The notes below the pieces were generated by a model. It saw only the letters and a program-made list of their open reading frames with translations, was not told where the DNA came from and did no database searches. From assembly GCF_003344625.1 (NCBI RefSeq), contig NZ_QPKJ02000006.1:1-64000 (forward strand): a DNA stretch of 64,000 bases, written 5' to 3'. Source of the DNA: Solirubrobacter deserti. GTDB taxonomy: Bacteria > Actinomycetota > Thermoleophilia > Solirubrobacterales > Solirubrobacteraceae. Positions 33,290 to 53,094 of the stretch are shown here, piece by piece; positions within the stretch are counted from its first letter, which is position 1, and each line of letters opens with the position of its first letter. A program made the position numbers and the translations under genes.

Positions 33290-33308
33290 CCGCGCACTCT
33301 GGGGGTGG

Positions 33309-33878
33309 ATGCCGGACGACACGACACCCCTCGGCGCGCCGCTGACGACGCCCGACGGCTTCGTCGCCCTCTACCGCCGCGAGGCGGAGCTCGTCCTGCG
33401 CTTCTGCACCCGCCGGGTGCTCGACGCCGAGACCGGCGTGGACCTGTGCGCCGAGACGTTCGCCCAGGCGTTCCGCTCGCGGCGCTCGTTCCGCGGCGCG
33501 ACGCAGGCCGAGGCGCGCGCGTGGTTGCTCACGATCGCCCGCCGCCAGGTCGCCCGCTACCTGAAGAGGGGCGCGTTGGACCGCCGTGCGCGCGAGGCGC
33601 TCGGGATCGTCACGCCCGTGCTGCAGGAGGGCGAGGCGGAGGAGATCGAGCGGCTCGCCGGGCTCGCGCCGCTGCGGGCGGCGCTGGCCGAGGAGCTGGC
33701 TCGGCTGGGCGGCGACCAGCGCGAGGCGCTGCGCCTGCGCGTGGTCGAGGAGCAGCCGTACCCCGAGGTGGCACGGTCGCTCGGCGTGACGGAGGCGACG
33801 GCACGAGCGCGGGTGTCACGCGGGCTGCGGACGCTCGCCGCGTCGTTGGAACTGCGATGGGAGGGCGAGCGCCCATGA
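33309..33878 (+). CDS. ECF sigma factor
   Basis: 189 residues: region 2 at about 15-80 (FVALYRREAELVLRFCTRRVLDAETGVDLCAETFAQAF, ARAWLLTIARRQVARYL) and region 4 at about 115-175 (ALRLRVVEEQPYPEVARSLGVTEATARARVSRGLRTLA). No C-terminal extension. The ATG at 33309 lies 20 bases after a terminator stem with GGGGGTGG before it, so the leader is short. The stop overlaps the start of the next gene (ATGA), whose product is the likely anti-sigma factor. Signal unknown. Confidence 0.87.
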   Translation: MPDDTTPLGAPLTTPDGFVALYRREAELVLRFCTRRVLDAETGVDLCAETFAQAFRSRRSFRGATQAEARAWLLTIARRQVARYLKRGALDRRAREALGIVTPVLQEGEAEEIERLAGLAPLRAALAEELARLGGDQREALRLRVVEEQPYPEVARSLGVTEATARARVSRGLRTLAASLELRWEGERP

Positions 33879-35152
33879 GGATCCTCGACGAGCTGGAACG
33901 CGAGATCGAGCGGGTGGCGCACGCGGCGGGAGAAGCGCGGCCGCGCCGCCGCTGGTGGCGTTCGGGCGCGCTGCTCGTGCTGGCGCCGCTGCTGGCCGGC
34001 ACCGTCGCGGTGGCGGCGACGACCGGGATCCTGTCCGGCGAGCCGGTCTCCAGCGACCCGCACGCGCCGCGGGACCCGAACGCCGGGATCGGCGTCAACG
34101 CCGGTCCGGGCAAGCTGCTGGCGGTCCGCGCCGCCGATCCGGCCGGCGGCCCGGAGTGGGGCCTGCGACTGGTCAAGACCTCGCGCGGGCTGGGCTGCCT
34201 GCAGGTCGGCCGCGTCGTCGACGGTCGGCTCGGACGCCTCGGGCAGGACGGCGCGTTCGGCAACGACGGCAAGTTCCACGAGCTCGGCCCCGAGATCCTG
34301 GAGACCTCCAGCGAGTGCCAGCAGCCCGACGGCGCCGGGAACGTCTTCTTCGCGATGACGTCGATCGGGCAGCCGGCCAGCGCCGACCCCGCGAGCTGCG
34401 CCGTCCGCCCGCGCGGCGAGGACAAGCGCCCGGCGTGTCCGCGCGGCTCGCTGCGCGACGTCTTCTACGGCCTGCTCGGGCCGGAGGCGGCGGCGATCAC
34501 CTACCGCGAGGGTGGGAAGACCGTGCGCCAGGCGGTCGAGCGCCCCGCCGGCGCCTACCTCGTCGTGCGCGCCACCGACCCGGACCGCCGCGACGTCGGC
34601 TGGTGGTCCCCCAGCGTCACCCCGAGCTGGGTCGAGTCGATCGAGTTCCGCGACGGCACCGTCTGCCGCCCCGACGAGCGGCCGCGCCGCCACGGCCGCC
34701 ACGAGTGCCCGCTCAAGGGCTACGTGAAGCCGCGGCTCGACATCGCCACGCGCGCCGAGCTCGCCACCCCGATCACCGTCCGCGTGGGCACCGCGCGCGA
34801 GAAGCCCTACCCCGAGATGGACCGCAAGTCGCTGGAGCGCATGGAGTGGCAGCGTCGCGTCACGATCAGCTTCCGCGCCCGCCGCGCCGCAGACGCCCGG
34901 TCCTTCTACAAGCTGACCGCCGAGATCCCGGGCCGTCCCCCGAACTGCGGCGTCGGCCTCGGCAGCCCGATCGCGCGCGACATCGCCGCCGGCGAGACGG
35001 TCACCGAGACCCTGTGGGTCGCGCACCGCTGCTCGGGCACGATGACGATCCGCATCGGCTACGAGCAGCAGACCGCTCCGTCCCAGATGCCGTTCCACGG
35101 CGACGGGCCGCCCAACGCGAAGGTCGGGACGGCCCGCGTGCGGATCCCCTAG
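33875..35152 (+). CDS. Single-span membrane protein, probable anti-sigma factor
   Basis: 425 residues. A basic cytoplasmic segment of about 38 residues (ELEREIERVAHAAGEARPRRRWW) is followed by one membrane span (GALLVLAPLLAGTVAVAATTG) and a 365-residue exterior domain with several Cys (LGCLQVGR, SSECQQPDG, CAVRPRG, CPRGSLRD, CRPDERP). Coupling to an ECF sigma gene by ATGA and the topology argue for an anti-sigma factor sensing envelope conditions. The cytoplasmic part is shorter than a classic zinc-finger or ASD domain, so this is inference. Convergent with, and overlapping by 4 bases, the giant operon. Confidence 0.7.
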   Translation: MRILDELEREIERVAHAAGEARPRRRWWRSGALLVLAPLLAGTVAVAATTGILSGEPVSSDPHAPRDPNAGIGVNAGPGKLLAVRAADPAGGPEWGLRLVKTSRGLGCLQVGRVVDGRLGRLGQDGAFGNDGKFHELGPEILETSSECQQPDGAGNVFFAMTSIGQPASADPASCAVRPRGEDKRPACPRGSLRDVFYGLLGPEAAAITYREGGKTVRQAVERPAGAYLVVRATDPDRRDVGWWSPSVTPSWVESIEFRDGTVCRPDERPRRHGRHECPLKGYVKPRLDIATRAELATPITVRVGTAREKPYPEMDRKSLERMEWQRRVTISFRARRAADARSFYKLTAEIPGRPPNCGVGLGSPIARDIAAGETVTETLWVAHRCSGTMTIRIGYEQQTAPSQMPFHGDGPPNAKVGTARVRIP

Positions 35153-38100
35153 TTGCCGCCCGGGTTCTCGCCGATCAGGGTCGCGAAGCGCAGCAGGTAC
35201 TCGTCGGAGGTGCCTCCGTCCGGGTCGGCGACGTGGTCGCTCTGAACCGCCACATCCGTGTCGGTCGGGCCTTCCCAGAACGGCGCGAGCCGCCCCAGCC
35301 CGCCCTGCGCGACGAGGTCGCCCACGAGGTCGACGCATGAGCGCGTTCCGCCCAAGCGCGACCAGTCCGCGTCCGTCGCCGGGGCGACCGGCGCCGTCAC
35401 CCCGGTCAAGGACGCGAGCAGCGCCTGGCGGAAGGTGCGGATGCGGGCGCTCGCGCCGCCGCCGTCGGTCGTACGGTCGAAGCCGACGATGTCCACGCCG
35501 TCGTCGAACGTCATGCCGCGCCGGCGCCAGTGGGAGGTGCCGACCAGCGCCCACGCGTCGTCGACGACCACGGTCGTGGAGCGGATCGCGACGGCGCGGC
35601 CCGGGAAGCCGTTTGGGTGGAACGCGACCACGCGCGCCGGGTCGACGTCTTTGAGCACCTGCAGCGCCGCGTTGCGGGCCTTGAACGCCTGCCGCACCCA
35701 GCCGCCGTAGAGCGGGTCGGCGTCGGGCCAGCGCGGGACGCACACGAGCACGAGCAGTGACTGCTGCTCGTTCATGCGCAGCGCGAGCTCGGCCACGAGG
35801 TCGAGCTCGTGTGGCGCGGCGGGCCCGGGCGGGTCCTTCTCGTGCTTGGTGGCCGAGAACGCGGGCGAGCTGATGAACACGAGGTCGCGCGCCTGGCGGA
35901 CGGCGCGCCGCAGCGCCCACTGGGCGTCGCGCGAGCCGAAGCGCTGGGTGTGGAACTCGCGCCGGATCTCGCGGACGATCTGCGCCTCGTTGGTGAGGTC
36001 GACGTCGTCCACGTCGTCGGGGTCGAAGCCGAACTTCTGCACGATCACGTCGATCAGGTCGTTGATCGACGCGTCGGCGGCCGGGATGTCGTCGATCAGG
36101 GCGAGCTCGGGCGACTCGCACTTGACCGCGATCGTGCGCAGCACGGCGGCGGCACACGAGCGCGGCGCCGTCTGACCCGCGGGCGCGGTGTCGTTCGCGG
36201 GCTCGGCGGGCGCCGCCCAACCCGTGTTGGCCACCACGGGCAGCCAGCCGACGCCGGCGCTCGCCAGGAAGGGCAGCAAGGGCTGCGCGCGCCGCGCCGC
36301 GATCTGCGCGACGTCGAACGCCGCCGCCCCGTCCACGCGCACCCCGGCGGCGTGCACGTCCGGCCCGGCCGGGTTCCCGGGGTTGCCCAGCGCGTGCATC
36401 GCGCTGCGCGTCTCGCGCGCCCAGCGCCCGCCGCTGACGACGGCGTCCCAGGTCATCGGCGCGGCCGTGTCCCCCGTGCCGACCGTCAGCAGCGACGCAA
36501 AGCGAGCCTGGGTCGGCAGCCGCGGCCCTTCCCGCGGGTCGCTCTCGCCCCCGAGCCGGCGCAGCATCTCCAGGATCGACGTCGGCAGCGCCGGGTCCAC
36601 CTCCGGCGCCGGGATGCCGAACACGGGCGCCGCCGCGACCGCCTTCAGCACCGCCCCGTTCCCCGCCATCGGGTCGGGCGTGCCGAAGGCGTCGACCGGC
36701 GTCGCGCCGCTCGGCGCCCCGATCGGCACGATCACGTTGCCGAACGTGCGCGTCGCGTTCATCCGGTCCGTCACGACGAGGTCGAAGATCAGCCGGCGGC
36801 CGGGCGGCTGCACGGCGCCGACGGGCAGGTCGAGCGGGTTCGTCAGCAGCAGCGAGAACGCGTTGTTGTCAGCCACGACGTGCGCGGCGCCGTCGCCGCG
36901 CAGGAAGCTCGGCGCCGGCCCGATCGACTCGATGCGCTTGAACACCTGGGGGTACACGCGCACGTGCCAGTCGAGCGGGATGGTCCCGCCCGGGAAGGTC
37001 AGCAGCACGTCCTGGTCGCCCGACCAGGACGCCACCAGCCCCGTGTCGGGCTGCCCGGACGGCGGCGCCCCGCCGCCCAGCGCCACCGGGAACGCCGGCC
37101 AGTGCCCGCCCGGCAACCCGACGCCGTCGTCGATCACCGGCGAGGACGCGAACGCGAGCCCCTGCCAGCCCGCCCCGATCGCCCCCAGCACGCTGCCCGA
37201 CGCGCTCAGCACGTCGACTCCGTCGACCAGGAAGTCGAGCCGCACGCGGTCACGCACCGCGGGCCGGAACTCCTCCGGGATCGCCTGGTCCGCGCCGTCG
37301 ATCCCGTAGACGACCGTGTTGGAGCGGTTGCCCAGCAGGTGCCACTTGAGGTCGACCGCGGTCACGCGCAGGAACTGGCGCGCGATCCCCGCGGGCACGC
37401 CGGCGGGAACGGTCAGCGTCGTGCGGTCGAGCACGCCGTTGTGCGTCCACCCCACCCGGATCCGCGCGGCGCCGTCGCCGGAAGCCGGGATGCCGATGCC
37501 ATCGGCCGCGTTGAGCGCGACGAGCCCGACCGCGTCGCCGGAGTCGGTGCCCGACACGAACTTGCGCGGCGCGAGCGAATCGACGGCCCGGAACGGCGCG
37601 CCGTGCGGATCGACGACCTGCACGACGATCCCGGTCGCCTTCCCGGCGATGCTCGTGACGCCGCCCGGCGTGTTGAGCACGCCCAGCGGCGCGAGCGCGG
37701 GGAACGCCGTCGCCAGGTCGTTGAACAGCGCCGCGACCGCGACGGGGTCGACGATCAACCCGCGCGCGTCGTGGAAGCTCATCACCGGCGTGTCGGCCGG
37801 GTCGATGTCGATCGACTCGCCGGGCGCGAACCAGCGCGCGGTCAGCGCCGGGTTGGTGGCGCAGCGCACGACCATCGTGTGCGGCACCGGCCGGATCGGT
37901 CCGGCGGCGCCCAGCCGCGTCGCCACGAGCTGGTCCAGCCGCGTCGCCGCCTGCGGGTGCAGCCGCAGCACGGCGCCGATCCCGGTCAGCGGCAAGCCGC
38001 TCACGTCATAGACCCCCGCGCGCCGCAGGTCGGCGACCCACGTCCGGATGCCGAGGAACGGCGGGCGCGCGCCGCCGCCGGGCGTCATCGTGAGCGTCAG

Positions 38101-38241
38101 CGCGGCATTGTCGAACGTCGCGTCCGCGTTCGACCACGACGGCCCCAGCAGCGGCACCGTCAGGCCCAGCGCGAGCAGCCCGTCGTCCGTCAGCCGCTGC
38201 TGCGCGTCGTTGGGCGTGATCACGGGCGGCAGGGCGGTCAT
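35149..38241 (-). CDS. Giant-operon gene C: 1030-residue protein with degenerate PLD-like domain
   Basis: No signal peptide or membrane span. Residues 1-650 are of unknown family, beta-rich, with possible Ig-like modules (GVTSIAGKATGIVVQVVDPHGAPF, RRLIFDLVVTDRMNATRTF). Residues about 750-940 resemble a phospholipase D lobe: ALRRAVRQARDLVFISSPAFSA, then RSTTVVVDDAWALVGTSHWRRRGMTFDD, aligning with the second HxKxxxxD motif. The His is replaced by Arg and the Lys by Thr, so classical catalysis is unlikely. ATG overlaps the stop of gene B (ATGA) after GGAGGTG, so coupled translation. Possibly a structural or binding part of a complex with A and B. Confidence 0.75.
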   Translation of the reverse strand: MTALPPVITPNDAQQRLTDDGLLALGLTVPLLGPSWSNADATFDNAALTLTMTPGGGARPPFLGIRTWVADLRRAGVYDVSGLPLTGIGAVLRLHPQAATRLDQLVATRLGAAGPIRPVPHTMVVRCATNPALTARWFAPGESIDIDPADTPVMSFHDARGLIVDPVAVAALFNDLATAFPALAPLGVLNTPGGVTSIAGKATGIVVQVVDPHGAPFRAVDSLAPRKFVSGTDSGDAVGLVALNAADGIGIPASGDGAARIRVGWTHNGVLDRTTLTVPAGVPAGIARQFLRVTAVDLKWHLLGNRSNTVVYGIDGADQAIPEEFRPAVRDRVRLDFLVDGVDVLSASGSVLGAIGAGWQGLAFASSPVIDDGVGLPGGHWPAFPVALGGGAPPSGQPDTGLVASWSGDQDVLLTFPGGTIPLDWHVRVYPQVFKRIESIGPAPSFLRGDGAAHVVADNNAFSLLLTNPLDLPVGAVQPPGRRLIFDLVVTDRMNATRTFGNVIVPIGAPSGATPVDAFGTPDPMAGNGAVLKAVAAAPVFGIPAPEVDPALPTSILEMLRRLGGESDPREGPRLPTQARFASLLTVGTGDTAAPMTWDAVVSGGRWARETRSAMHALGNPGNPAGPDVHAAGVRVDGAAAFDVAQIAARRAQPLLPFLASAGVGWLPVVANTGWAAPAEPANDTAPAGQTAPRSCAAAVLRTIAVKCESPELALIDDIPAADASINDLIDVIVQKFGFDPDDVDDVDLTNEAQIVREIRREFHTQRFGSRDAQWALRRAVRQARDLVFISSPAFSATKHEKDPPGPAAPHELDLVAELALRMNEQQSLLVLVCVPRWPDADPLYGGWVRQAFKARNAALQVLKDVDPARVVAFHPNGFPGRAVAIRSTTVVVDDAWALVGTSHWRRRGMTFDDGVDIVGFDRTTDGGGASARIRTFRQALLASLTGVTAPVAPATDADWSRLGGTRSCVDLVGDLVAQGGLGRLAPFWEGPTDTDVAVQSDHVADPDGGTSDEYLLRFATLIGENPGGN

Positions 38242-41200
38242 GACACCTCCACGTCGATCGTGTGGGAGCGCCCGTCCGGCGCCGTGAGCCGGAGCTTGAA
38301 CGCCTTCACCGGCACGCGCGCGAGCACGGCGTAGGCGCGCTTGCGCCCACCCGCTCCGCGCCGCACCTGCAGCGGCTCGTTGCCCGGCGGCTGGCCCTGG
38401 TCGCGCGGGATGTCCGGCAGCGCGATCTCGAGCAGCAGCGTCTTGGCGAGCGGCGGGCCGAACGGCGGCTTGACCACGACCGCCGTCCCTCGGTCCCGCG
38501 ACGGCACCAGCGCGCCCGGGCGCTCGACGACCGGGAACGGCTTGACCACCGCCGCGCTCTCGGGCGTCGCCTGCACGCGCAGCATGTACGCGAGCCCGTG
38601 GTAGCGCTCCAGCGGCGCGTCGCACGCGAACTGGAGCACGATCCCGCCCGGCGTCTTCGACAGCTGCGGCGACAGCAGCTCCGGCGCGGGCAGGACGGAC
38701 CCCGCGGGCACGTGCAGCGTGCGCGTGCGCGACCGGCCGAGCGGGTCGATGACGCGCACGGAGACGTCGATCGCCGGGTCGTTCACGGCCCGTCGCACCA
38801 GCGCGCGGAACGACCCGCCGCCCACGCGGAAGAACCCGTTCTCGCTTGCCCCCGGCGGGTCGGTGGGCGCGCGCCCGAGCTCCCCGAAGTACGAGAACAG
38901 CGGGTCGGCCGCGCCGACCGAGCGCACCACCACTTCCAGTTTGTGGGGCCCGAGCGCCGTCGGCGCGAGCGGTGCGGTGGTCGTCCAGTCCAGCTGCACG
39001 TCGGCGGCGGCGCTGCCCGGCCACGAGGTGGTGATCGCCGACAGGTTCGGGTCTCCGGCGGGCGGCGTCACCACCGACACCGGGTTCGACGGCGCCGAGC
39101 GCCCGCGGACCAGCCCGCGCTCGGCGATCTTGTACGGCAACGGCCCGCCCGTGTCGAACTCCTCGTCGGCCCACGCGACCGCCCGGTACCAGACGCGCTT
39201 CCAGCTACCGCCGGGCACGTCGGTGCACGTGAACGTGTCGCCGTTGACGTTCCAGGCCGGGTTCAGCGGCGGGCCCATGGTGTCCAGCGAGCGCGCGGCG
39301 TCGTCGACCCGCACGCGGTAGAGGTCGACCTCCCCCACGCGGTGCCCGTCGCGCGCGGTGACCGTCAGCTTGACGCTGCCGTCGGCCTTCGCGAGCGCCT
39401 CGAGCATCGGCGGCGCGGGCGTCGCGATCCGCGGCGCGGCGCGCAGGATCACTGCTTCGCGCACGTCCGGCCCGGCCGGCCACGGCCCTTCCACCCCGCC
39501 CGGCGAGAGGGAGACGACCGCGTAGGCGTGGATCGCCGTGGAACCGGCCGGGAGCGCGACATCCAGGCTCGTCCCGGTCAGCGGCTTCGTGTTCACGCGC
39601 GTGAACGGCCGCCGGTCCGGGCTGGCCTCCCACAGGTCCAGCAGCGCCGTCGCGCGGTCCGACAGCGTTGCCGACAGGTCCGGCTCGGGCGCGCCGTAGT
39701 GCGCGAGCATCGTCAGCTCGTCGGAGGTGTAGACGACGTAGCCCGCCGCGCCGTGGGCCACCGGCCAGGAGATCCGCGCGTGCGAGCGCCCCTCGGCGTC
39801 GGGCAGCGACGCGAGCGGGACGAGCTCCGGCGGCACGGGCGGCGCGACCGGGTCCGACGCGTACGCGATCACCGGCGCGCTCGCAGCGGCCGGATGTTCC
39901 GGCGCGATCAGCTCGGTGCCCGAGAGCCACAGCACGAGCCCGATGTGCGGGGTCGCGGTGAAGTTCGCCTGCAGGCCCTCGATCGTGAGCCGGTAGCGCC
40001 GCACGTCCTCGCCCTGCTCGCCCGGGTCGACGGCCTCGTCACCCTCCGGGTTCAGGTAGACGAGATCGCCCTCGCTCTGGACGGCCGCGTCCCCGCCGGA
40101 GAACGTCAGCGTGACCGCCTGGTCCCCGGCGGCGCCCCCGATCGCCCGCTGCAGGACCGCGGGTGCAACGGTGCTGGGCGGCGGCGCGGCCCGGTCGGCG
40201 GCCGCGTACATGCGGCCGACGAGCCGCAGCTCCTTCGGCCGGCGGTCCGTCCAGTCCCACGTGACGTCGACGGTCAGCTCGCCCGTGCACAGCTTGCCGC
40301 TGGCGGGCGCCGTGACCGCCAGCGTCGCAGCGACGATCCGCGGCGCGGGCGTGAGCGGCTGCTGGGCGTCGAACCCGACGCCCAGCCACGGGCTCCAGAG
40401 CGAGAAGATCGACTGGGTCGCCACGGAGTAGCGCACGTTGCGCTCGCCCGGGTTGTTCGGGATCATCAGCCGGCGGTCGGCGAGGTGGACGAAGTTGGAC
40501 TGCGGGTCCTTCTCGGCCTGCCCGGGCGCGATCGGCTTGTGGCCGCCGCTCGGCCGCGGCTCCATCAGCGGCGCGGCCACGGCCGCCGCCGTGTCGTTGC
40601 GCGCCGCGGCGTAGCTCGCGACCCGGATCAGCGTGTTCGACGGCGGCCGGTTCCAGCGCACGATCGCGCTCGCCGCCCAGTCCGCGTCGCGCGCCGCCGG
40701 GGCGATGAACGCCGAGTGCTCGCTCGCGAGCTGCGCGGGCGGGAACGGCGGCAGCGCGGCGATCGGCCGCAGCGCGTAGGCCACGAGCTCGACCGGCGCC
40801 GAGTTGCCGTCGAGGCCCTTCGCGTACGGCGCGGTGATCATCCAGTCCCAGCGCGAGCCGTCGTGGTAGGCCTTGCCCTCCGGCTGGGTGATCTCGGGCA
40901 GGTTGGTGCCGTAGCCGAGCGCGAGGCTCAGGAACGGGTCGGCCGCCGTGGCCACCCGCAGCAGCATCAGCGGCGAGACCTTCGCCTTCGTCGGGTTGGC
41001 GTTCATCGCGTCGCCGTCCAGCGTCGCGGGCGGCGGCACCTCGACGTCCATCAGCGTCGCCGCCTGATCGCGTTGCGGGCGGGTCAGCACCGTCCGCAGC
41101 GCGGGCACGACGTCCTCGTTGACCTCGTCCACCAGCTTGGCCGGGACCGGCGGCTTCCACACCGGCGCCGCGACGCCGGCCATCACCTGCGCGTCCCACC

Positions 41201-41894
41201 CGAACCCGGGCGTGCCGCGGTCGATGCGGCTGATCGCGGCGTCGCGCGGGCTCATGAGCGGCGGCCCGACCGGCCCCTGCGGCGAGAAGTGCGTGCCGAT
41301 CCCGCTCCAGGAGGTGTCGACCGGCATTCCGACGATCTCGACCGGCTGCCAGTTCGGCAGCGCCTCGTACTTGGCCACGGGGATGCCGGTCACGCCCGTG
41401 ACGCTCATCCCGCTCGGGATCAGCAGGCCGTTCATGTAGCCGCCGTGGATCTCGACCGACGTCGCGCCGCCGGGCGCGTGGCTCGTCGTGACCAGCGAGT
41501 ACAGCGACGGCGCGTTCGAGAGGCCGTGGATCGCTCCGCCGCTCGCGCTGTTGATGCTCAGCCGCGCCCACGCCACGGGCTGGTGGAAGAGCACGAGCCG
41601 CCCGCTCAGCAGGAACGTCGCCGTCAGCGAGTAGCCGATCGGCACCTCGGCGCCGCCGGAGAACGACGGCCGCCGCCAGACCGTGAACGGTCCGGTCGGG
41701 AGGCCCACCCCGCGGTCCTTGCCGTCCGGCCCGAGGTTGCCGGCGGCGCCGTTGATGTGCCAGCGCAGGGCGACCACGCGCGGGAACCCGCGCGGCTTGA
41801 CGTCGAGCTTGCGCCGGCGCGCCTCGACGTTCCAGTCGATCATGGCCGCCTCGACGATGAACAGCCGGGGATCGACGATCCGCGTGACGGCCAT
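38238..41894 (-). CDS. Giant-operon gene B: 1218-residue Fn3-like protein
   Basis: Unknown family without signal peptide or membrane spans. The first 480 residues have little internal pattern (VALRWHINGAAGNLGPDGKD, MNGLLIPSGMSVTGVTG). From about 530 beta-sandwich modules appear. One is LTVDVTWDWTDRRPKELRLVG; another is SHARISWPVAHGAAGYVVYTSD, a typical Fn3 strand B-C pair near residue 705. Further modules are VKLTVTARDGHRVGEVDLYRV and ADVQLDWTTTAPL. The C-terminal DGRSHTIDVEVS is again a sandwich edge. Begins one base after the stop of gene A with GGAGGAGG inside A's last codons. Likely binds partner proteins through the modules; no catalytic motif seen. Confidence 0.75.
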   Translation of the reverse strand: MAVTRIVDPRLFIVEAAMIDWNVEARRRKLDVKPRGFPRVVALRWHINGAAGNLGPDGKDRGVGLPTGPFTVWRRPSFSGGAEVPIGYSLTATFLLSGRLVLFHQPVAWARLSINSASGGAIHGLSNAPSLYSLVTTSHAPGGATSVEIHGGYMNGLLIPSGMSVTGVTGIPVAKYEALPNWQPVEIVGMPVDTSWSGIGTHFSPQGPVGPPLMSPRDAAISRIDRGTPGFGWDAQVMAGVAAPVWKPPVPAKLVDEVNEDVVPALRTVLTRPQRDQAATLMDVEVPPPATLDGDAMNANPTKAKVSPLMLLRVATAADPFLSLALGYGTNLPEITQPEGKAYHDGSRWDWMITAPYAKGLDGNSAPVELVAYALRPIAALPPFPPAQLASEHSAFIAPAARDADWAASAIVRWNRPPSNTLIRVASYAAARNDTAAAVAAPLMEPRPSGGHKPIAPGQAEKDPQSNFVHLADRRLMIPNNPGERNVRYSVATQSIFSLWSPWLGVGFDAQQPLTPAPRIVAATLAVTAPASGKLCTGELTVDVTWDWTDRRPKELRLVGRMYAAADRAAPPPSTVAPAVLQRAIGGAAGDQAVTLTFSGGDAAVQSEGDLVYLNPEGDEAVDPGEQGEDVRRYRLTIEGLQANFTATPHIGLVLWLSGTELIAPEHPAAASAPVIAYASDPVAPPVPPELVPLASLPDAEGRSHARISWPVAHGAAGYVVYTSDELTMLAHYGAPEPDLSATLSDRATALLDLWEASPDRRPFTRVNTKPLTGTSLDVALPAGSTAIHAYAVVSLSPGGVEGPWPAGPDVREAVILRAAPRIATPAPPMLEALAKADGSVKLTVTARDGHRVGEVDLYRVRVDDAARSLDTMGPPLNPAWNVNGDTFTCTDVPGGSWKRVWYRAVAWADEEFDTGGPLPYKIAERGLVRGRSAPSNPVSVVTPPAGDPNLSAITTSWPGSAAADVQLDWTTTAPLAPTALGPHKLEVVVRSVGAADPLFSYFGELGRAPTDPPGASENGFFRVGGGSFRALVRRAVNDPAIDVSVRVIDPLGRSRTRTLHVPAGSVLPAPELLSPQLSKTPGGIVLQFACDAPLERYHGLAYMLRVQATPESAAVVKPFPVVERPGALVPSRDRGTAVVVKPPFGPPLAKTLLLEIALPDIPRDQGQPPGNEPLQVRRGAGGRKRAYAVLARVPVKAFKLRLTAPDGRSHTIDVEVS

Positions 41895-41895
41895 C

Positions 41896-44800
41896 TCAGT
41901 CCTCCTCCCACGGAGCCTTGGTGAACGCCACGTCGACGAGCTTGGGCAGATGGTCGCTCGCGCCGGGCCCGTCCAGGTAGCCCTCCTTGAACGCGAGCCG
42001 TTTGAGCACGAGCGAGAGCGTCTTGCCGCGCGAGCCCGGCTTGAGCAGCACGATCGCGCGCTGCCCGCCGGGCGCGCGGACGATCCGCTGCACCACGTCG
42101 TCGGAGCCCGAGCCCTCCTCCGGGAAGATCCAGTCGTCGCGCGTGAGCTCGTAGTGCTTGACGTCGGTGCCGGTGAGCGTCTCGAGCGTGGCGCGCTCGC
42201 GCTCGCGCCACAGGGGCTCGGTGGAATCGATCACGACCGCGGTCGGCTGCGGCGTGCCCGCGCCCTCCCACCACACGATCACGCGCGGCTTGTCCGGCAC
42301 CGGCATCGGCTCCAGCCCTTGCCCGGCGAGCACCTGATCGAGCTCCTCACCCTCGGGCTGGTGGGACGTGAACGCGAGCTTGACCGCGTTCGCCAGCCCG
42401 TTCGGCACGGCGCGATGCGTCACGCGCGAGCCGCGCACGAACGCCGCCATCGCCTCCAGCGACGCGAAGCCGGAGGTCGCGAACGCGCGCCGGAACACCC
42501 GCTCCTCGGTCTTGCCGGTCGTGCCCTCGTCCGGGACGCGCCAGATGTCGAGCAGGTAGTCCGTCGCCGGGTCGAGCGGGATCGGGATCTTCGTCACCGA
42601 GTGGCGCTGACGGTCCTCGTCGACGTCCACGCAGTCCGGGTCGATCACGTCGAGCACGGTCGACTCCCAGGGCGAGAAGATGTCGCCCGGGATCTGCTCG
42701 ACGTTGGCGTTGACGCCCTCGGTGGCGAGCACGATCGGGTACGGGAACGGAAGCTCGTCCGGGTCCGGATGGCGTGCCGAGGCCGCCAGCAGCCGCAGCT
42801 CGAGCGTGTAGCCGTGCGCCTTGAACAGGTCGAACAGGTCGTGCGTGGCGAACGCGATCTGCAGCGGCTCGCCGCCGAACACGTGCCGCTCGCCCTCATA
42901 GGGCAGACACGCCAGCACCCACGGGTCCAGCCGCAGCGGCGCGTCCTCCTGGGTCCTGAACCAGAAGCTCTGCGTCGCGCCGTCGCTCGCGATCTCCCCC
43001 GCGGCGTTGGACGCGTCCGCCGACCACGTCACGTCGACCCGGTAGGCCGTGCCCGGCGTCATCAGCGGCACGTCCGCGCTCTCGGCCCCGAGCGCGGCCT
43101 CCAGCACCTCGTGGTTCTTGGTGACCGTGTGCTCGTCGTGGTCCGAGCGCGCGATCTCGGCCTCGAGCAGGGCCTCGAGCGCGGCGACGTAGTAGATCGG
43201 GCCGCTCAGCGTCTCCTCCTGCTTGCCCTCCGGCGGCATGCCGACGACGATCCGGTCGGCCTTCAGCGCGCCGCCGACGTCCACCAGCACGGCGACGTAC
43301 TGCTCGCTGTCGGGCAGGGCGAGCAGGTGGTTCATCACGAGCGTGACGTCGTCGTCCCACGGCCCGGCGGCGTCGACCCACGGGCTCGGGAGCGTCACCC
43401 AGCTCACGGCCATCGAAGCGTCCACCTGCTCGGCGAACACGATGTCGTCGTCGGGGGTGACGGCGCGCACCACGATCCGCTTGTTGAGCACGCGCTTGTG
43501 CACGAACAGCAGCAGCCGCGCGCGGTCGAACACGCCCGGCTCGAGGATGACGGCGTCGGCGAGGTCACCGGGCTTGAACTTCAGTGCGTCCCAGCGCTTC
43601 TGGATGTCCTGCTCGCGCGCCGGATCGCCGGTCGGCGGCTTGAGCGTGTCGAAGCGCGGCGCGGCGAGGATGCGGCTCGGGCACGTGCGCGCGGGCGCCT
43701 GGGCTTCGGCCACGACGCCGCGCAGCGCCGCGTTGCTCATCGGCACGCCGAGCTTGAGCCGGCGCTGGATGTCGGTGATCGAGAGCCCGCGCTCGTCGAG
43801 CACGTCGGGGGTCTTGAGGCCCTTCACGCGTTCGGTGCCGGGGCGGGCGAGCGCCGGCTTGCCGGGCTCGGGCTGCGGGCAGGCGACGATCGCGCCGACG
43901 ACCTCCGCGGGCAGGATGCCGCGGAACGGGTCGACCATCGGGTCGCCGCAGCGCCAGCGCTCCTCCACGTCCAGCCGGGTCGGCGTCGGCAGCGACCGTA
44001 CGGTCTCCGGCGGGTCCGGCCACGCCTCACCGAACACGATCCAGCCGTCCTCGGACGGGCCGAGCGGCTCGTAGCGGAACGTCCACAGCACGGGCGTCGG
44101 TGGCGCGGCCTGGTAACACACGGTGCCCCAGCGGTCCTTGACCGTCTCGGTCAGCTGCTCGGACGCCTGCAGCGCCTTCGGCGTCGGGTTCGGCACCCAC
44201 GACAGCAGCGCGAGCTGCGCCGCCTCGTTGGCCTCGGTCGGCGGGCGCAGCGTCCACCACGTGGCCGGGCCGCCCGGCTTGGACAGCGGGCCGGCGATGT
44301 CGACCGCGGTCAGCGTGTAGGAGAGCTTGTCCGAGCTGCGCTGGATCTCGCGACCGCCGCCCGAGCCGCCGAGCGCGTCACCGCGGAACTTGAGGTCGTT
44401 CTTCTCGAACGGCGGCGCGGTGAACTCGATGACCGGGATGGCGTTGATCGGAACGACCGGGATCTTCGGGTCGTCCTGGGTCGCCGTGGCCTTGCCCAGG
44501 CCCCCGTCGACGGGCTCGTCGGAAGCCGTGCCGTGCACCAGCGCAGGCGTGCGGCTGACGAGGGTCACGCCGCCCACCAGGGCCGGGATCGCGATGTCCG
44601 GCGGCTGGTCCTCCTCGAGCGTGAAGTCGACGCAGCCCTCGATCTCGAAGAAGAACAGGTCGATCGACCCGCACACCTCGCCGTGGATGCGGTAACCGGT
44701 GGAGTCCGGGTCGTCGGGCAGCTCGCCCAGCCGCACGTTCAGCTCGGCGCTGGCCGAGATCGAGACGATGAACAGGCGCAGCTCGCCGCGGCCGTAGAGG

Positions 44801-47800
44801 ATGCCGGCCACCAGCAGGGGCGAGAAGCCGAGGATGGCGTCGAAGCCCGCGGCCAGCTCGGCGTACAGGCCGACCGACTTCGAGCCCCAGACCATCGAGA
44901 CGTGCAGGCCGGCGGAGATCGCGAACCCGTGCGGCACGGGCAGCTCGGGCATGAAGTCGTCCGCGCTGTTCTTCCCGTCCCCGACGAGCATGAGGTAGCC
45001 CGAGCCCTTGAAGACCTCGAAGATCTCGGCGCGGATCGGGTCCGGGTACTGGCCGAGGTACAGGTGCCAGTTCTGCGGCTCCTTGCCGTCGAAGAACGCC
45101 TCGACCGGGATCCGCAGCTTCAGGATCGGGTCGATCGTGTAGTCGATGACCAGCCCGATCGTGAGCGTCTCACGCCCGACGTCGAGGTCGACGACGGCGA
45201 GCAGCGTGCCCTCCGCCTCGGTCTCGAGCTCGGGCATCGGCACGAGCAGGTTCGCCTTCATCATCAACAGCAGGCGCGGTCCCGGCAGCTCCAGCAGGAC
45301 CATGCCCTTCATGTTGAAGACGATCGAGCTGCCCATCGTGCCGACGAGCGCGCCGACGCCGAACGCCCAGCGGTCGATCTGCGGCTTCCACAGCGCCGGG
45401 TCCTCGACCTTGGTGATGTCACCGCCCGCGCGCTTGAGCCAGGACAGCGCCTTCGTGGTCGAACCGGCGTCGGGCTCCTCGTTGCGCGCGAAGTGCATCG
45501 CAAACAGGCCGATGAAGCCGTAGATGCCCAGCCCGGAGGACCACAGCGGGATCGCGACCGGGAAGTTGACCTCGATGCCCACGGCGACGCCCGTGGCCGG
45601 GCCGCCCTGGTCCTCGGGGATGTTGCGGATCGCGAGCGACGCGGCGATGCGCAGGCTGAGCGGGACGAGCGTGATGTCGATGCGGCCCGCGAAGCCCGTC
45701 TCGTCGAAGGCGAGGTAGCCCGAGCCGGCCAGCACGCCCGGAATGTCGACGCCGACGCCGAGTGCGGTGAGCTCGACGCCGAACGGGTCGCCGAGCGTGA
45801 TCCGCACCCCGGCGCGCTCGAGCGCGACCACGCCGAGGTCCACGGCCGAGGCGAGGTTGACCTCGAGGTAGGTCGGGTTGGTGCGCGAGATCTTCGCGCC
45901 GTCCACGCGCAGCACCTGGCCGAGCGGGTCGGCGACGGTCAGCGAGCCGGGCTTGGAGACGTCGAGCGTGTAGCCCTTGGAGGAGTCGAAGACCGGGTGG
46001 AAGATCGGCTCGCCCGTCGGGCCGGCGCCGAAGCGCACCCCGATCGCCTTGTAGCGGGCGACGAGCGGCTTGTCGCGCGCGATCGTCAGCAGCCGCAGCG
46101 GGCCGATCTTGATGTCCGCGCTGACCGCGGTCTCGATGTCGGCGAGGATCGCCGTCGACCACGCGCCCGCGTGCTGGCGCACGACCAGCTCGCCGCCGTA
46201 CCAGACGACGCGCTCGACGGTGAACCAGTCGGTCGCGGTCAGCAGCGCGGGCAGCCCCGCCGCCGCGGCGCCGAGGACCAGGTCGGTGACTTCCGCGCTG
46301 CCGGGCTTCTCCGGCGCGAGCTCCGCCAGCAGCGGCCAGAACAGCAGGTACAGGCCGAGCAGGTTGCGCGCGGTGGACGGCTCCGCGAGCGGCTGGCCGG
46401 GCAACGAGCCGGTGGCCGCGAGCCCGTCCACGTCGGACGGATCGGCGCCGAAGAGCACGCTCAGCTGCCACTCGTCGCTGCCCGGGTTCTGCGTGTACAC
46501 GCCGCGGAAGGCGACGATGCCGTCGCCCGGGTTCTGGTGGCCGAGGCCCTGGAACTCCGGCCCCTCCCCCGCCTGCACGCCGCTTTCACGCAGCGTGCGC
46601 TCGGCCGCGGTGTCGACGTCGATCTCGCCGTGCAGCTCGACCGCCACGAAGTCGTCGCGGACGATCCGCACCTTTGCGCCGATCGAGCGCAGGAAGTCGG
46701 GCGGCTCCGGCGGGTCGTCGGTCGGCGGCGGGTCGGGCAGGTCGATCGTGATCTCTTCGTTGATGACCGGCGGGCGCTTGACGACGGCGGTCGTGACCGG
46801 GCCGGCGAACGCGATCGGCGTCAGCAGCTCGGCGCGCCACCAGCGCCGGCGCGGGTTGTTGGCCGGGTCGCCGATCTGCGCGGGCTTGGCCTGGGTGAAC
46901 CCGCGCGGGTCGGTCTCGATGATCAGGCGCCCGGCGCCAGCGAGCTGGTCGTAGAGCCGGCGCGCGACCTTGGCCCGGCGCTCGGACAGCGCCTGGTTGT
47001 AGCCGGCCTTGGCGTCGTCGCCCTCCCAGGAGGCGTGGCCGACGACGGTGATCTCGTCCTGCGCCGCGAGCGAGCGCAGCGCGTCGCCGTACTCGGAGGA
47101 CGCGAGCACCGACATGCCGCCGGGCGTCCAGCCGCTGTCGATCGTCTGGTCCAGCGACTCGGTCGTGTGCGTGAGATCGGCGTTGTTGGCGTACTCGTTG
47201 AGCTGGGCGTCGGTGAGCTGGTCCGGCTCGTCGTAGTGGAAGTAGACGGGCGCCTTGGTCGTCGTGCCGGGCACCGTGGCCTCGACCGTCTGCTGGCTGT
47301 CGGGCGCGAGCGGGAACGTGGCGGAGGTGGCCGGGCCGCCGGGGACGGTCACGCCGCCGACCTCCCAGGTGGCGGCCGAGTTGTCCTCGAGCGCGACCGT
47401 GACCGTCGTGTCGGTCTGGCTGCGGATGACGAGCCGCGGGTTGGTGACCGTCGCGCCGCCGCGCATGGTCGTCGACGACTCGACGTGCGCGGACGGGATC
47501 GCGCCCGGGATGGTGATGGTGCCCGAGCTGCCGCCGGGCGCGTTGCGCTGCGCGTCGATCGTGAGGATGACCGGCTCGTCGCCCTGCGCGGTGACCTCGA
47601 CCTCGATCTTGATCTCGTCGGTCTGGCCCCAAGCGTCGATCGTCTTGATCCGCTCGGTCTCCCACGCGCCGCCGTCGATGCGGATCCTGGAGAGGTACGG
47701 CGGCCTGCGGCCCTCGATGTCGACCACCATCGTGGACTCGTCGGGCAGCACCACGGACAGGTGCAGGTCGTCGATGCGGCGGACGTTGATCGGCTCGCCG

Positions 47801-48807
47801 AACAACGTGTAGAAGCGCGCGCCCAGGTGCAGCTCGCCGCCCTGGTTGACGACGTCGAGCATGAAGTCGCCGGTCACGCCGGGCGTGTTGCCGATGCCGA
47901 TCAGCAGGTTCGTCGCGCCCGCGCTGACCGCCCAGCCCTCCGCGCCCTGCGGCGAGACGAACAGGCGGATCTCCGGGAAGTAGACGCCGGTCCAGTCCTG
48001 GTCGTAGCCGAACTGCTCGAGCACGGCCGGCGGCGTCGAGCCCTGCGAGAGGTCGAGCACGGCCGAGCGGAAGCCGAAGCCGACCACGCGGCCCGTGCCG
48101 ATGAACGCGTACGGCGGGTCCATCGTGACCATCTGCGCGACGCCGATGTCCCCGGGGTCGTCCAGCCCGGAAGCGCCGAACGACAGCAGCTGGATGGTCG
48201 GCTGCGAGCCGAGCGCGGAGCCCTGCGTGATCCGCAGCTTGACCTTCGGCAGCGTCAGTTTGACCTCGGTGGCCGTGTCGTGCGGCTCGAGCACCTGGTC
48301 GGTCGGGCGCAGCTGGGCGGGCTTGAGGAACGGCGGGCGCAGCACCGCGGACGTGATCACCAGGTCGAGCACGAACTCGGTGCTCGGGTAGTCCGAGACC
48401 GCACCGATCGGCGGCGGGTCGAACGCGTCGAGCACCGCGTCGACCGGCGTGCCGTTGAGCGGCCCTGCGCCCTGCACGATGATCGCCGAGCTCGCCCGGG
48501 GCGCGAGCAGCTGGAAGTCGATCGTCGTGTCGCGCAGGTCGATCCACGGCTGCCGGCGCGACGGGTCGTCCTGCGGGTGGCCCTCCGTGTTCTCGGCGCG
48601 GACGCCGAAGCTGAACGTCATCGGGTCGAAGTAGACGTCGACGTCGGCGTGGATGCGGGCGCGGCCGCGGAGCACGCTCGCCGACGGGTCAGCGCCCTCC
48701 TCGTACTCGTCCACGGCGAGCGTGGCGAGCGCGGCGTGGAAGTTCCCCGCGGCGTTGCCGAGCAGGAAGTACGGGCTGACGAGGTCCCACAGCGCTACGT
48801 CCGGCAT
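41896..48807 (-). CDS. Giant-operon gene A: 2303-residue beta-rich protein with OmpA-like domain
   Basis: First gene of the operon. No signal peptide. Residues 1-550 are beta-rich (WVDLRDTTIDFQLL-like strands). Residues about 560-660 form an OmpA-like domain (ITVVGHASWEGDD, NQALSERRAKVARRLYDQL, NNPRRRWWRAEL). Residues about 890-1400 are long alternating amphipathic strands and Gly turns (GSGYLAFDETGFAGRIDITL, LYAELAAGFDAILGFSPLLV, HGEVCGSIDLFFFEIEGCVD). This recalls the uncharacterised DUF6603 type, a recollection only. The last 900 residues are mixed alpha/beta without recognised family. Exterior or scaffold role is guesswork. Confidence 0.75.
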   Translation of the reverse strand: MPDVALWDLVSPYFLLGNAAGNFHAALATLAVDEYEEGADPSASVLRGRARIHADVDVYFDPMTFSFGVRAENTEGHPQDDPSRRQPWIDLRDTTIDFQLLAPRASSAIIVQGAGPLNGTPVDAVLDAFDPPPIGAVSDYPSTEFVLDLVITSAVLRPPFLKPAQLRPTDQVLEPHDTATEVKLTLPKVKLRITQGSALGSQPTIQLLSFGASGLDDPGDIGVAQMVTMDPPYAFIGTGRVVGFGFRSAVLDLSQGSTPPAVLEQFGYDQDWTGVYFPEIRLFVSPQGAEGWAVSAGATNLLIGIGNTPGVTGDFMLDVVNQGGELHLGARFYTLFGEPINVRRIDDLHLSVVLPDESTMVVDIEGRRPPYLSRIRIDGGAWETERIKTIDAWGQTDEIKIEVEVTAQGDEPVILTIDAQRNAPGGSSGTITIPGAIPSAHVESSTTMRGGATVTNPRLVIRSQTDTTVTVALEDNSAATWEVGGVTVPGGPATSATFPLAPDSQQTVEATVPGTTTKAPVYFHYDEPDQLTDAQLNEYANNADLTHTTESLDQTIDSGWTPGGMSVLASSEYGDALRSLAAQDEITVVGHASWEGDDAKAGYNQALSERRAKVARRLYDQLAGAGRLIIETDPRGFTQAKPAQIGDPANNPRRRWWRAELLTPIAFAGPVTTAVVKRPPVINEEITIDLPDPPPTDDPPEPPDFLRSIGAKVRIVRDDFVAVELHGEIDVDTAAERTLRESGVQAGEGPEFQGLGHQNPGDGIVAFRGVYTQNPGSDEWQLSVLFGADPSDVDGLAATGSLPGQPLAEPSTARNLLGLYLLFWPLLAELAPEKPGSAEVTDLVLGAAAAGLPALLTATDWFTVERVVWYGGELVVRQHAGAWSTAILADIETAVSADIKIGPLRLLTIARDKPLVARYKAIGVRFGAGPTGEPIFHPVFDSSKGYTLDVSKPGSLTVADPLGQVLRVDGAKISRTNPTYLEVNLASAVDLGVVALERAGVRITLGDPFGVELTALGVGVDIPGVLAGSGYLAFDETGFAGRIDITLVPLSLRIAASLAIRNIPEDQGGPATGVAVGIEVNFPVAIPLWSSGLGIYGFIGLFAMHFARNEEPDAGSTTKALSWLKRAGGDITKVEDPALWKPQIDRWAFGVGALVGTMGSSIVFNMKGMVLLELPGPRLLLMMKANLLVPMPELETEAEGTLLAVVDLDVGRETLTIGLVIDYTIDPILKLRIPVEAFFDGKEPQNWHLYLGQYPDPIRAEIFEVFKGSGYLMLVGDGKNSADDFMPELPVPHGFAISAGLHVSMVWGSKSVGLYAELAAGFDAILGFSPLLVAGILYGRGELRLFIVSISASAELNVRLGELPDDPDSTGYRIHGEVCGSIDLFFFEIEGCVDFTLEEDQPPDIAIPALVGGVTLVSRTPALVHGTASDEPVDGGLGKATATQDDPKIPVVPINAIPVIEFTAPPFEKNDLKFRGDALGGSGGGREIQRSSDKLSYTLTAVDIAGPLSKPGGPATWWTLRPPTEANEAAQLALLSWVPNPTPKALQASEQLTETVKDRWGTVCYQAAPPTPVLWTFRYEPLGPSEDGWIVFGEAWPDPPETVRSLPTPTRLDVEERWRCGDPMVDPFRGILPAEVVGAIVACPQPEPGKPALARPGTERVKGLKTPDVLDERGLSITDIQRRLKLGVPMSNAALRGVVAEAQAPARTCPSRILAAPRFDTLKPPTGDPAREQDIQKRWDALKFKPGDLADAVILEPGVFDRARLLLFVHKRVLNKRIVVRAVTPDDDIVFAEQVDASMAVSWVTLPSPWVDAAGPWDDDVTLVMNHLLALPDSEQYVAVLVDVGGALKADRIVVGMPPEGKQEETLSGPIYYVAALEALLEAEIARSDHDEHTVTKNHEVLEAALGAESADVPLMTPGTAYRVDVTWSADASNAAGEIASDGATQSFWFRTQEDAPLRLDPWVLACLPYEGERHVFGGEPLQIAFATHDLFDLFKAHGYTLELRLLAASARHPDPDELPFPYPIVLATEGVNANVEQIPGDIFSPWESTVLDVIDPDCVDVDEDRQRHSVTKIPIPLDPATDYLLDIWRVPDEGTTGKTEERVFRRAFATSGFASLEAMAAFVRGSRVTHRAVPNGLANAVKLAFTSHQPEGEELDQVLAGQGLEPMPVPDKPRVIVWWEGAGTPQPTAVVIDSTEPLWRERERATLETLTGTDVKHYELTRDDWIFPEEGSGSDDVVQRIVRAPGGQRAIVLLKPGSRGKTLSLVLKRLAFKEGYLDGPGASDHLPKLVDVAFTKAPWEED

Positions 48808-48954
48808 GACCCGACCAACGACATCGACGAACCCCCTCGGCTGGTTTCGGCGACCTTTCCCGGCATGGGCGGCCCGGGGGAACTAACTCAGTGGTGGGAC
48901 GCTACGGCGTGAAGCGCTGCTCTCCGGTCTGTAAGGACCCGGACAATTCACATC
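48808..48954 (-). promoter_or_regulatory. Presumed promoter region of the giant operon
   Basis: The 147 bases between the stop of the PBP gene and gene A are the only non-coding space before the 13.7-kb operon. No clear -35/-10 pair or ECF-type motif is visible on the minus strand, and there is no strong terminator stem for the PBP gene. Read-through from the PBP gene is therefore possible. Confidence 0.3.
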
Positions 48955-52038: not shown

Positions 52039-53094
52039 TCAGGTCCAGTAGAGCAGCCGCGCGTTCGGAAGCGTGGCGGCGAGCGCGCGCTCGAAGAAGG
52101 CCTTGAGCGCGGCCATCACGGGCTTGGGATAGACGTGCTTGACACCGCCGAACTTCGTGCGCTTCTGGGCGCGCAGGTCGTCGTCCATCTCGAGTGTCGA
52201 GGCGGGATACCAGCTCCGCAGCACCGCCCGCGAGGTGTCGGTGAAGCGGTGCGTGATGCATTCGACGGTCAGGTCGGCGTCGAGTCCCTCGAGCGCGGCC
52301 GCGACGCGGTCCAGCAGCTCCTGATAACCAGCGTCCCAGTCCTCGAGCGGCATGATCGGTGCGATCGTCAGGCCCACCGGATAGCCCGCCGCGGCCAGCC
52401 GGCGCAGCGCCTGCAGGCGGGCGTCGAGCGGCGCCGTTCCGCCCTCGTAGCGCTTGGCCACGAGCGGCGCGTTGACGGACATGCGCGCCCGCGTGCGGCC
52501 GCCGTGGTCGAGGCGCAGGAGCTCGTCCACGGCATCGAACTTGGTCGTGAACCGCAGCTGCGTGCCGGGCCGGTCGGCGAAGTGCTCGATCGTCGCCGCG
52601 AGCGAGCCCGTGAGGTGCTCGATGCCCAGCGGGTCCGTGTAGCAGGAGGCCTCGAAGGTCGTGCCCTCATGCGCGCGTGCGTCCTGCTTGGACGTCACCG
52701 TCCCCCGTCCCTCATAGGCCGCGAGCTCGCCGAGGATCTCGTCGAGGTTCGCGAAGGCGCGGGTGACCGGGGCGCCCGGCAGCGAGCCGGCCAGATAGCA
52801 GTATTGGCAGTGCGCCGGACACCCGCGCGCGATGTGGAACTGCCAGTCGGCGCTCGGCGGGATCGGCTGCGGGCGCCGCGCGCTCGGCGGAGCGACGACG
52901 ACCGCGAGCGTCGACTTCGCGCGCCGGTACCGGTCGCGTTCATTGCCCTGTCTGAGGCTCGGCAGCCGGTCGGACGCCAGCCGCTCGACGGGGATGCCGA
53001 GCCGCTCGCAGCGCGCCGCGATCGCGTGCCCGTGCTCGAAGTCCAGCGCGGCGCGCGTGACCAGCACGTGCTTCGGCGTCCACAGCTTCGCCAT
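52039..53094 (-). CDS. splB: Spore photoproduct lyase-type radical SAM enzyme
   Basis: 351 residues. Radical SAM enzyme that reverts the thymine dimer called spore photoproduct. Cluster motif CPAHCQYCYL near residue 92-101 follows the CxxxCxxC form of the family. The H-atom-donor cysteine region FEASCYTDPLGIEHLT matches the Bacillus enzyme's EASC site. Other matching blocks are NERDRYRRAKSTL, LRFTTKFDAVDELL, RMSVNAPLVAKRYEGGTAPLDAR and GYPVGLTIAPIMPLEDW. It starts MAKLWTPKHVLV, with the family's usual beginning. Genes for sporulation are not seen in this window. Confidence in the family is high; physiological role here is inferred. Confidence 0.9.
   Translation of the reverse strand: MAKLWTPKHVLVTRAALDFEHGHAIAARCERLGIPVERLASDRLPSLRQGNERDRYRRAKSTLAVVVAPPSARRPQPIPPSADWQFHIARGCPAHCQYCYLAGSLPGAPVTRAFANLDEILGELAAYEGRGTVTSKQDARAHEGTTFEASCYTDPLGIEHLTGSLAATIEHFADRPGTQLRFTTKFDAVDELLRLDHGGRTRARMSVNAPLVAKRYEGGTAPLDARLQALRRLAAAGYPVGLTIAPIMPLEDWDAGYQELLDRVAAALEGLDADLTVECITHRFTDTSRAVLRSWYPASTLEMDDDLRAQKRTKFGGVKHVYPKPVMAALKAFFERALAATLPNARLLYWT

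Follow-up and report, generated by a model that had tools for sequence, protein, structure and literature searches.

Three giant coupled genes share one order in a pair of unrelated soil bacteria and possibly encode a particle associated with the cell envelope

What is produced by coupled genes of 1000-3000 codons that carry no export signals, and why do phospholipase D (PLD), peptidase and phosphatase-like genes accompany them? These questions are raised by a tightly coupled three-gene operon, A-B-C, located at positions 35149-48807 on the minus strand of a 64,000-nucleotide stretch of the Solirubrobacter deserti genome (contig NZ_QPKJ02000006.1, positions 1 to 64,000), which is referred to here as the window. 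There is solid evidence that the operon is real and that it is kin to operons encoding DUF6603 (Pfam PF20248) proteins, and it is well supported that A, B and C constitute a functional set; the nature of their product can be addressed more tentatively. The genes, their junctions and the recognisable parts of their products are as follows.

41896..48807, minus strand: gene A, an open frame with an ATG start encoding 2303 amino acids and comprising an N-terminal region, an OmpA-like module, a DUF6603-like core and a C-terminal region
46768..47244, minus strand: residues 522-680 of A, an OmpA-like module delimited by its alignment with the Rhizobium tropici and Paracoccus proteins
44545..45879, minus strand: DUF6603-like core of A, residues about 977-1421, from hhalign comparison with DUF6603 proteins, a decoy test and amphipathic alternation
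41901..41908, minus strand: GGAGGAGG, likely ribosome-binding site of B within the end of A, from the junction sequence
38238..41894, minus strand: gene B, an open frame with an ATG start encoding 1218 amino acids, a partner protein without a recognised domain
38244..38250, minus strand: GGAGGTG, likely ribosome-binding site of C within the end of B, from the junction sequence
38238-38241, minus strand: ATGA overlap of B and C, from the junction sequence
35149..38241, minus strand: gene C, encoding 1030 amino acids from the ATG at 38241, with an N-terminal region of unknown fold and a C-terminal half PLD-like domain
35263..35925, minus strand: half PLD-like domain of C, residues 773-993, from hhalign comparison with PLD proteins
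35572..35583, minus strand: RSTT, residues 887-890 of C, aligned in place of the H-S/A-K of PLD relatives and also present in the R. tropici C protein

Codon-position contents of guanine plus cytosine (GC) were coding-like for A (0.70/0.47/0.98), for B (0.72/0.55/0.97) and for the frame holding C (0.79/0.58/0.87). Genes A and B are joined by TGA, a single base and ATG, with GGAGGAGG lying upstream. The ATG at 38241 sits within a longer GTG-started frame (35149-39174) and was taken as the start of C because it yields the ATGA overlap with B and because the alignment with the R. tropici protein then includes the very first residue of C. The gene sizes, the one-base gap, the overlap and the sequences of the likely internal ribosome-binding sites described in the initial annotation were thus confirmed from the frames and junction sequences, and its statement that signal peptides and clear membrane spans are lacking was borne out by Kyte-Doolittle hydropathy, by which neither is obvious in A, B or C (19-residue maxima of 1.79, 1.44 and 1.59, respectively) and no signal peptide or anchor is evident in the homologues scanned alongside them. 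C does show a short hydrophobic stretch near its N-terminus, with a 12-residue maximum of 2.14. Neither a sigma-70-like promoter nor a terminator-like site was found in the region 48600-49200, between mrdA and A.

The case for a functional set rests primarily on conservation of the arrangement. On plasmid pRtrCIAT899c of R. tropici CIAT 899 the three genes follow one another as they do in the window (L008, 13824-28217), with A aligning over its full length with the window protein (32 % identity over 2384 columns), B directly following A (25 % over 1122 columns) and C collinear over its whole length (30 % over 1107 columns). On plasmid pAMI4 of Paracoccus aminophilus, A is directly followed by a large gene whose product aligns with B at 26 % identity but gives no blast match at E 0.01; the next 2 kb carry no frame exceeding 175 amino acids and lead to a transporter gene. 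In Azospirillum oryzae, an A-like gene is accompanied by a second large gene, coupled to it, and by a gene of 786 amino acids. A second arrangement, denoted type II, with the order large partner, PLD and A, occurs in another genome of the same genus as S. deserti (G481) and in Mycetohabitans plasmids. Spacing between A and the next gene is at most 4 bases in all four loci where A comes first (the window, R. tropici, Paracoccus and Azospirillum). The initial proposal that the three genes form a joint set is therefore upheld by the recurrence of their order in another phylum and by the presence of a second giant gene in the same run at all six A-type loci, directly after A in four and separated by a PLD gene in two. 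Co-occurrence holds in part, in that A and its large partner are kept together while the third slot varies, with a C-type gene in 2/6 loci, an intact-looking PLD gene in 2/6 and neither seen in 2/6.

Within the collections searched, the A-B-C branch is rare and patchy. Few candidates were scored per genome, such that the genome tallies are lower bounds: relatives of A occur in at least 3 of 201 genomes of the order (S. deserti itself, a genome labelled as the same species that is probably the same assembly (G406), and G481), B in at least 1 of 296 genomes of the phylum, namely its own, and matches to a profile built from six A-type cores in at least 2 of 396 phylum genomes, the second being a weak match that later proved to be a DUF6603 gene. 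With R. tropici A as query, 3/7 genomes of the genus Solirubrobacter gave matches. Among 72,556 plasmid records, A matched seven (context was read for five: H1, H2, H3, H5 and H7), B one and C four, three of the latter being confined to the PLD-like part, and no match to R. tropici A was found among phage records. The relatives found outside the genus all lie on plasmid or megaplasmid records, the sole collection searched at that range.

The relationship to DUF6603 was revealed by profile comparisons. The core of A aligned with DUF6603 by hhalign at 98.1 % (E 1.1e-13, 408 columns), and at 98.5 % (E 2e-15) with a fuller alignment, while as controls three pairings of other families encoded by these operons came out blank at 0.05-0.2 %. 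Among proteins outside its build, the A-type profile detected 8 of 15 DUF6603 proteins at E<0.01 and missed the other seven; at the same threshold it detected none of 62 other locus proteins, none of 750 shuffled sequences (best E 0.68) and none of 15 reversed sequences (best E 0.15). In the reverse test, a profile built from DUF6603 proteins alone detected R. tropici A at 1.4e-9 and window A at 5e-4. At the profile level, and as judged from sequence, the core of A is thus homologous to DUF6603. Searches of A, B and C against Pfam, NCBIfam and PHROGs yielded, apart from weak matches of A to OmpA-like families, a few isolated hits of low significance, and PADLOC yielded none. When solved structures were searched by sequence, no significant match emerged for A by itself, for its core, for B, for C or for DUF6603 alignments. 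The piecewise profile search suggested in the initial annotation bore fruit for the A core, for an OmpA-like module in A and for the end of C, and not for B.

DUF6603 genes were detected in 12/396 actinobacterial genomes, S. deserti included, and in 13 plasmid records that include haloarchaea, Gemmatirosa and proteobacteria. Fifteen loci were read, consisting of the one in the S. deserti genome (L012), six in other genomes (L026-L030 and L046) and 8/13 plasmid records; those left out were L031, which is too short, the unannotated L047-L050 and five plasmid records. A partner protein, P2, was found by profile in 13/15 loci, four of which had contributed to building the profile, and in the fourteenth (L026) the partner is linked by blast to one of these 13, while the fifteenth (L027) reaches a contig edge at this position. 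Two further families defined as single-linkage blast groups, P3 and P4, occur in 9/15 and 5/15 loci, respectively. The DUF6603 gene overlaps the next gene or lies within 40 bases of it at 10 of 11 junctions, six of which are 4-base overlaps, and the eleventh spans 362 bases. Among same-strand neighbours, an M64 peptidase and a WD40 protein score above Pfam cut-offs, weaker matches are PhoD-like and metallo-beta-lactamase-like, and an S8 peptidase and a peptidoglycan-binding protein are present by annotation; one locus carries a PLD-like gene on the opposite strand. BGTF-surface and lamin-tail domains are assigned by annotation to the genes adjoining DUF6603 in a haloarchaeal operon. A Streptomyces DUF6603 operon encodes the protein annotated as peptidoglycan-binding, to which the third gene of the Azospirillum A-type locus is homologous (E 2e-49), and this common gene ties the A-type and DUF6603 branches by content as well as by sequence. 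The two kinds of operon have in common a homologous core, a coupled further large gene and, between one A-type and one DUF6603 operon, a further gene, and they differ in that the A-type protein falls below the Pfam cut-off and carries an OmpA-like module, and in that the P2 profile finds neither B nor C (0.2 % and 0.05 %, respectively, in comparisons with the P2 family).

A second, typical DUF6603 operon is present in the S. deserti genome itself (L012, 10883-16914, contig C1; the DUF6603 gene lies at C1:1470262), encoding proteins of 1063 and 947 amino acids with a 4-base overlap, and a few kb away lie two large paralogous genes with, by eye, the look of ATPase-type regulators. At two other DUF6603 loci, an S8 peptidase (L043, 21646-25356) and a PLD protein (L044, 2598-4544) have in common a stretch of about 95 residues that is 59 % identical, and is perhaps a targeting or binding tag carried by different enzymes.

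For the OmpA-like module of A, a profile of the three aligned homologues matches solved structures of OprF, Pal and OmpA (best E 6.6e-8), although single-sequence Pfam OmpA matches of the A-type proteins fall below the cut-off. OmpA-like domains bind peptidoglycan through an Asp, in the motif GHxD, and an Arg, and an Arg of the module is retained in all three homologues. The module differs from OmpA and Pal in being located inside a giant protein that lacks an evident export signal.

In C, residues 1-750 yielded no recognised domain. A search of solved structures with C returned a plant PLD at E 0.45, which is not significant. The final 220 residues of C aligned by hhalign at 98.2 % (E 4.7e-14) with the second half of an alignment of PLD proteins, drawn from two sister modules and a Nonomuraea protein, placing C close to the phospholipase D superfamily (PLDc_2, PF13091), though nothing in C matches the first half of the PLD fold. 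H-x-K is invariant at two places in the PLD alignment, and a strict search for H-x-K-x4-6-D/E recovers the second site only, in the two sister-module PLD proteins. C contains no H-x-K-x4-D motif, of which two would be expected in an active phospholipase D. Loss of the His and Lys abolishes PLD activity. Since H-x-K is replaced by R-S-T in both species and a half domain alone is present, C is most likely a pseudo-enzyme, and catalysis seems unlikely.

As regards B, an alignment of the other B-type proteins gave marginal matches to solved structures, the best at E 0.14. A candidate link to the large partner of the type II modules, via an N-terminal LRW...P...RR-like pattern (77.7 % over 35 columns), was rejected as unproven because shuffled decoys did as well in sequence-profile searches.

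A model of the DUF6603 core from the relative encoded in the same genome is of good quality and predicts a long amphipathic beta-meander with one hydrophobic, nearly uncharged face; alternating hydrophobicity is also seen in the A core, on strands taken from its own, poor model. The arrangement, and it alone, resembles that of ApoB100, outer-membrane barrels and ushers. ApoB100 occupied ranks 3-5 in Foldseek and second place in the VIA list, with a root mean square deviation (rmsd) of 9.5 Å that is below those of the adjacent rows. The relative's model had no match in a viral structure library at E 0.001. Known lipid-bridge proteins were absent from the VIA matches listed for it, and A had no Pfam match to Chorein-N or to repeating beta-groove families, neither result amounting to an exclusion.

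Our preferred interpretation, tentative as it is, is that the A-B-C operon is a divergent one of the DUF6603 type, and that its products form a leaderless multi-subunit particle acting at the cell envelope. An envelope-directed particle with A as its backbone is suggested by the coupling and conserved order of the genes, the wall-binding type of module, the amphipathic core and a third slot holding either PLD or a likely pseudo-PLD. Through translational coupling, A, B and C would be made together. The amphipathic sheet of the backbone would face a membrane or wrap lipid, the OmpA-like module would dock on peptidoglycan, and B would be an obligate partner. The third slot would be filled by an enzyme in some modules, the intact-looking PLD, and in the window by a pseudo-enzyme that binds its ligand without cutting it, candidates being phospholipid head groups or phosphodiesters. 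Given that signal peptides are lacking, the particle could be set free when the cell lyses, could be exported by machinery from another locus, or could act inside the cell.

A number of observations weigh against this interpretation. How A, B and C would be exported is not accounted for, given that they lack signal peptides. A misses the PF20248 cut-off, as do four A-type relatives, for which there is no match to this family, whereas several other proteins score above 400 bits; A is for this reason considered a distant relative of DUF6603 and not a member. The Asp of GHxD is missing from the module in both window A and R. tropici A, and is present in Paracoccus. Family and structure-sequence searches found no known domain in B, and its whole-length profile comparison with the B-like partner of the type II modules gave 6.4 %. 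The model of the window A core is poor (mean pLDDT 38.7), so that its fold is borrowed from a relative that is 20 % identical in the alignment, and the initial description of the proteins as beta-rich is sustained, for A, by that relative's model and not by A's own. Moreover, alternating hydrophobicity is also found in soluble beta proteins, and the porin, usher and ApoB matches of the relative's model, which have TM-scores no higher than 0.33 in Foldseek, rmsd values of 8-15 Å in VIA and no sequence relation found, reflect a common arrangement of the predicted structure and not a common fold. DUF6603 also occurs in actinobacteria and haloarchaea, organisms that lack an outer membrane.

The same amphipathic meander and PLD-like subunits, together with the lack of visible export signals and the prominence of ApoB100 in both structure searches, could also be accommodated by an intracellular lipid-handling complex, in which the sheets of A coat or bridge lipid in the manner of ApoB or of bridge-like lipid transfer proteins, and the PLD-like subunits act on lipid or recognise it, with no role in attack or delivery. 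We consider this rather unlikely because the OmpA-like module and the peptidoglycan-binding-annotated gene of a relative point to the cell wall, and the M64 peptidase, the annotated S8 peptidase and the weak PhoD-like and metallo-beta-lactamase-like matches in DUF6603 operons have no evident link to lipid.

Missing signal peptides would be explained if the genome encoded, at another locus, a contractile injection system for which A, B and C served as cargo or as accessory components. An apparent injection-system locus, comprising two tube genes and one gene for a contractile sheath, does occur in the S. deserti genome (C390:705116-711182), and the tube family PF06841 is commoner in DUF6603 genomes (6/12) than in the other phylum genomes (34/384 of the 396 in all), with Fisher p 4e-4, or 2e-3 when S. 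deserti is omitted, values that are uncorrected for genome size or kinship. This locus is unlinked to A-B-C, however, which lies on contig C399, and to the second DUF6603 operon on C1; sheath and tube genes were not found at the A-B-C locus itself. Matches to phage families (PHROGs) are limited to weak ones of A, within its OmpA-like region, to two families of unknown function, and there are none for B and C. Proteins of 1000-2300 amino acids are also large for tube cargo, and we judge this explanation unlikely.

Variable enzymes (PLD, M64 peptidase, S8 peptidase and PhoD-like) accompanying constant large partners, and a patchy, partly plasmid-borne distribution, might further be taken to indicate an antagonism system, in which the enzymes are toxins enclosed in a giant shell that works in the manner of Tc or Rhs proteins. 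With a limit as loose as E 1, none of the three proteins nevertheless matched a Tc or YD-repeat family, PADLOC recognised none of the three and the PLD-like protein of the window is a probable pseudo-enzyme, all of which renders such a role distinctly unlikely. Least probable by far are ordinary secreted surface, adhesin or S-layer proteins with overlooked export signals, to which the very large sizes and the BGTF-surface and lamin-tail annotations beside a haloarchaeal DUF6603 gene might point, since hydropathy reveals no signal peptide or anchor in A, B, C or the scanned homologues.

If the envelope-particle interpretation were extended to the DUF6603 operons in general, they would, with the A-B-C branch, constitute an undescribed bacterial and archaeal protein-lipid particle, envelope-targeted and without signal peptides, in which a giant backbone bearing an amphipathic beta-belt like that of ApoB is joined by large obligate partners and by a subunit, enzyme or pseudo-enzyme, that can be exchanged; taken as a whole, this generalisation is improbable. 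The window branch is useful in this respect because its putative pseudo-enzyme stands in the slot occupied by an enzyme in sister modules. Among 5.39 million papers searched in full text, a collection from which subscription papers and preprints are largely absent, none names DUF6603 or PF20248, and to this extent the initial suggestion of an undescribed system stands. The operon is not isolated, however, given the distant relationship of A to DUF6603 and the place of the operon as a branch within a larger family. Any novelty lies in the kind of system, the DUF6603 domain itself being already a Pfam entry of unknown function. Should the operon family be what it seems, it represents a multi-gene assembly of unusually large proteins distributed across actinobacteria, proteobacteria and haloarchaea.

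Nine neighbours of the operon were scanned, although one of them (33305-35152) overlaps another frame and may not be a real gene. The products identified were PBP2/MrdA, an ECF sigma factor and proteins resembling spore photoproduct lyase and DMT-type transporters, and four others had no match at E 1e-5. As initially noted, no secretion apparatus adjoins the operon among these nine. The spore-photoproduct-lyase-like gene (52039-53094, minus strand) scored 288 bits, under the curated cut-off of 400, and since it is this gene that precedes mrdA, the possibility that an mre cell-shape operon precedes A-B-C was rejected. The contig bearing A-B-C extends over 767,891 bases, and A is 100 % identical in NZ_JAPCID010000046.1 of strain CPCC 204708 and in G406. 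Adjacent to the G481 module, on the opposite strand (L006, 170-5766), are genes for a BTAD/AAA regulator and an animal-haem-peroxidase-like protein, and in Streptomyces sp. NBC_01724 the annotation likewise places a BTAD regulator close to the DUF6603 operon. Finally, an open frame of 2409 amino acids runs antisense to A (41683-48912, plus strand) and is probably a by-product of the high GC content.

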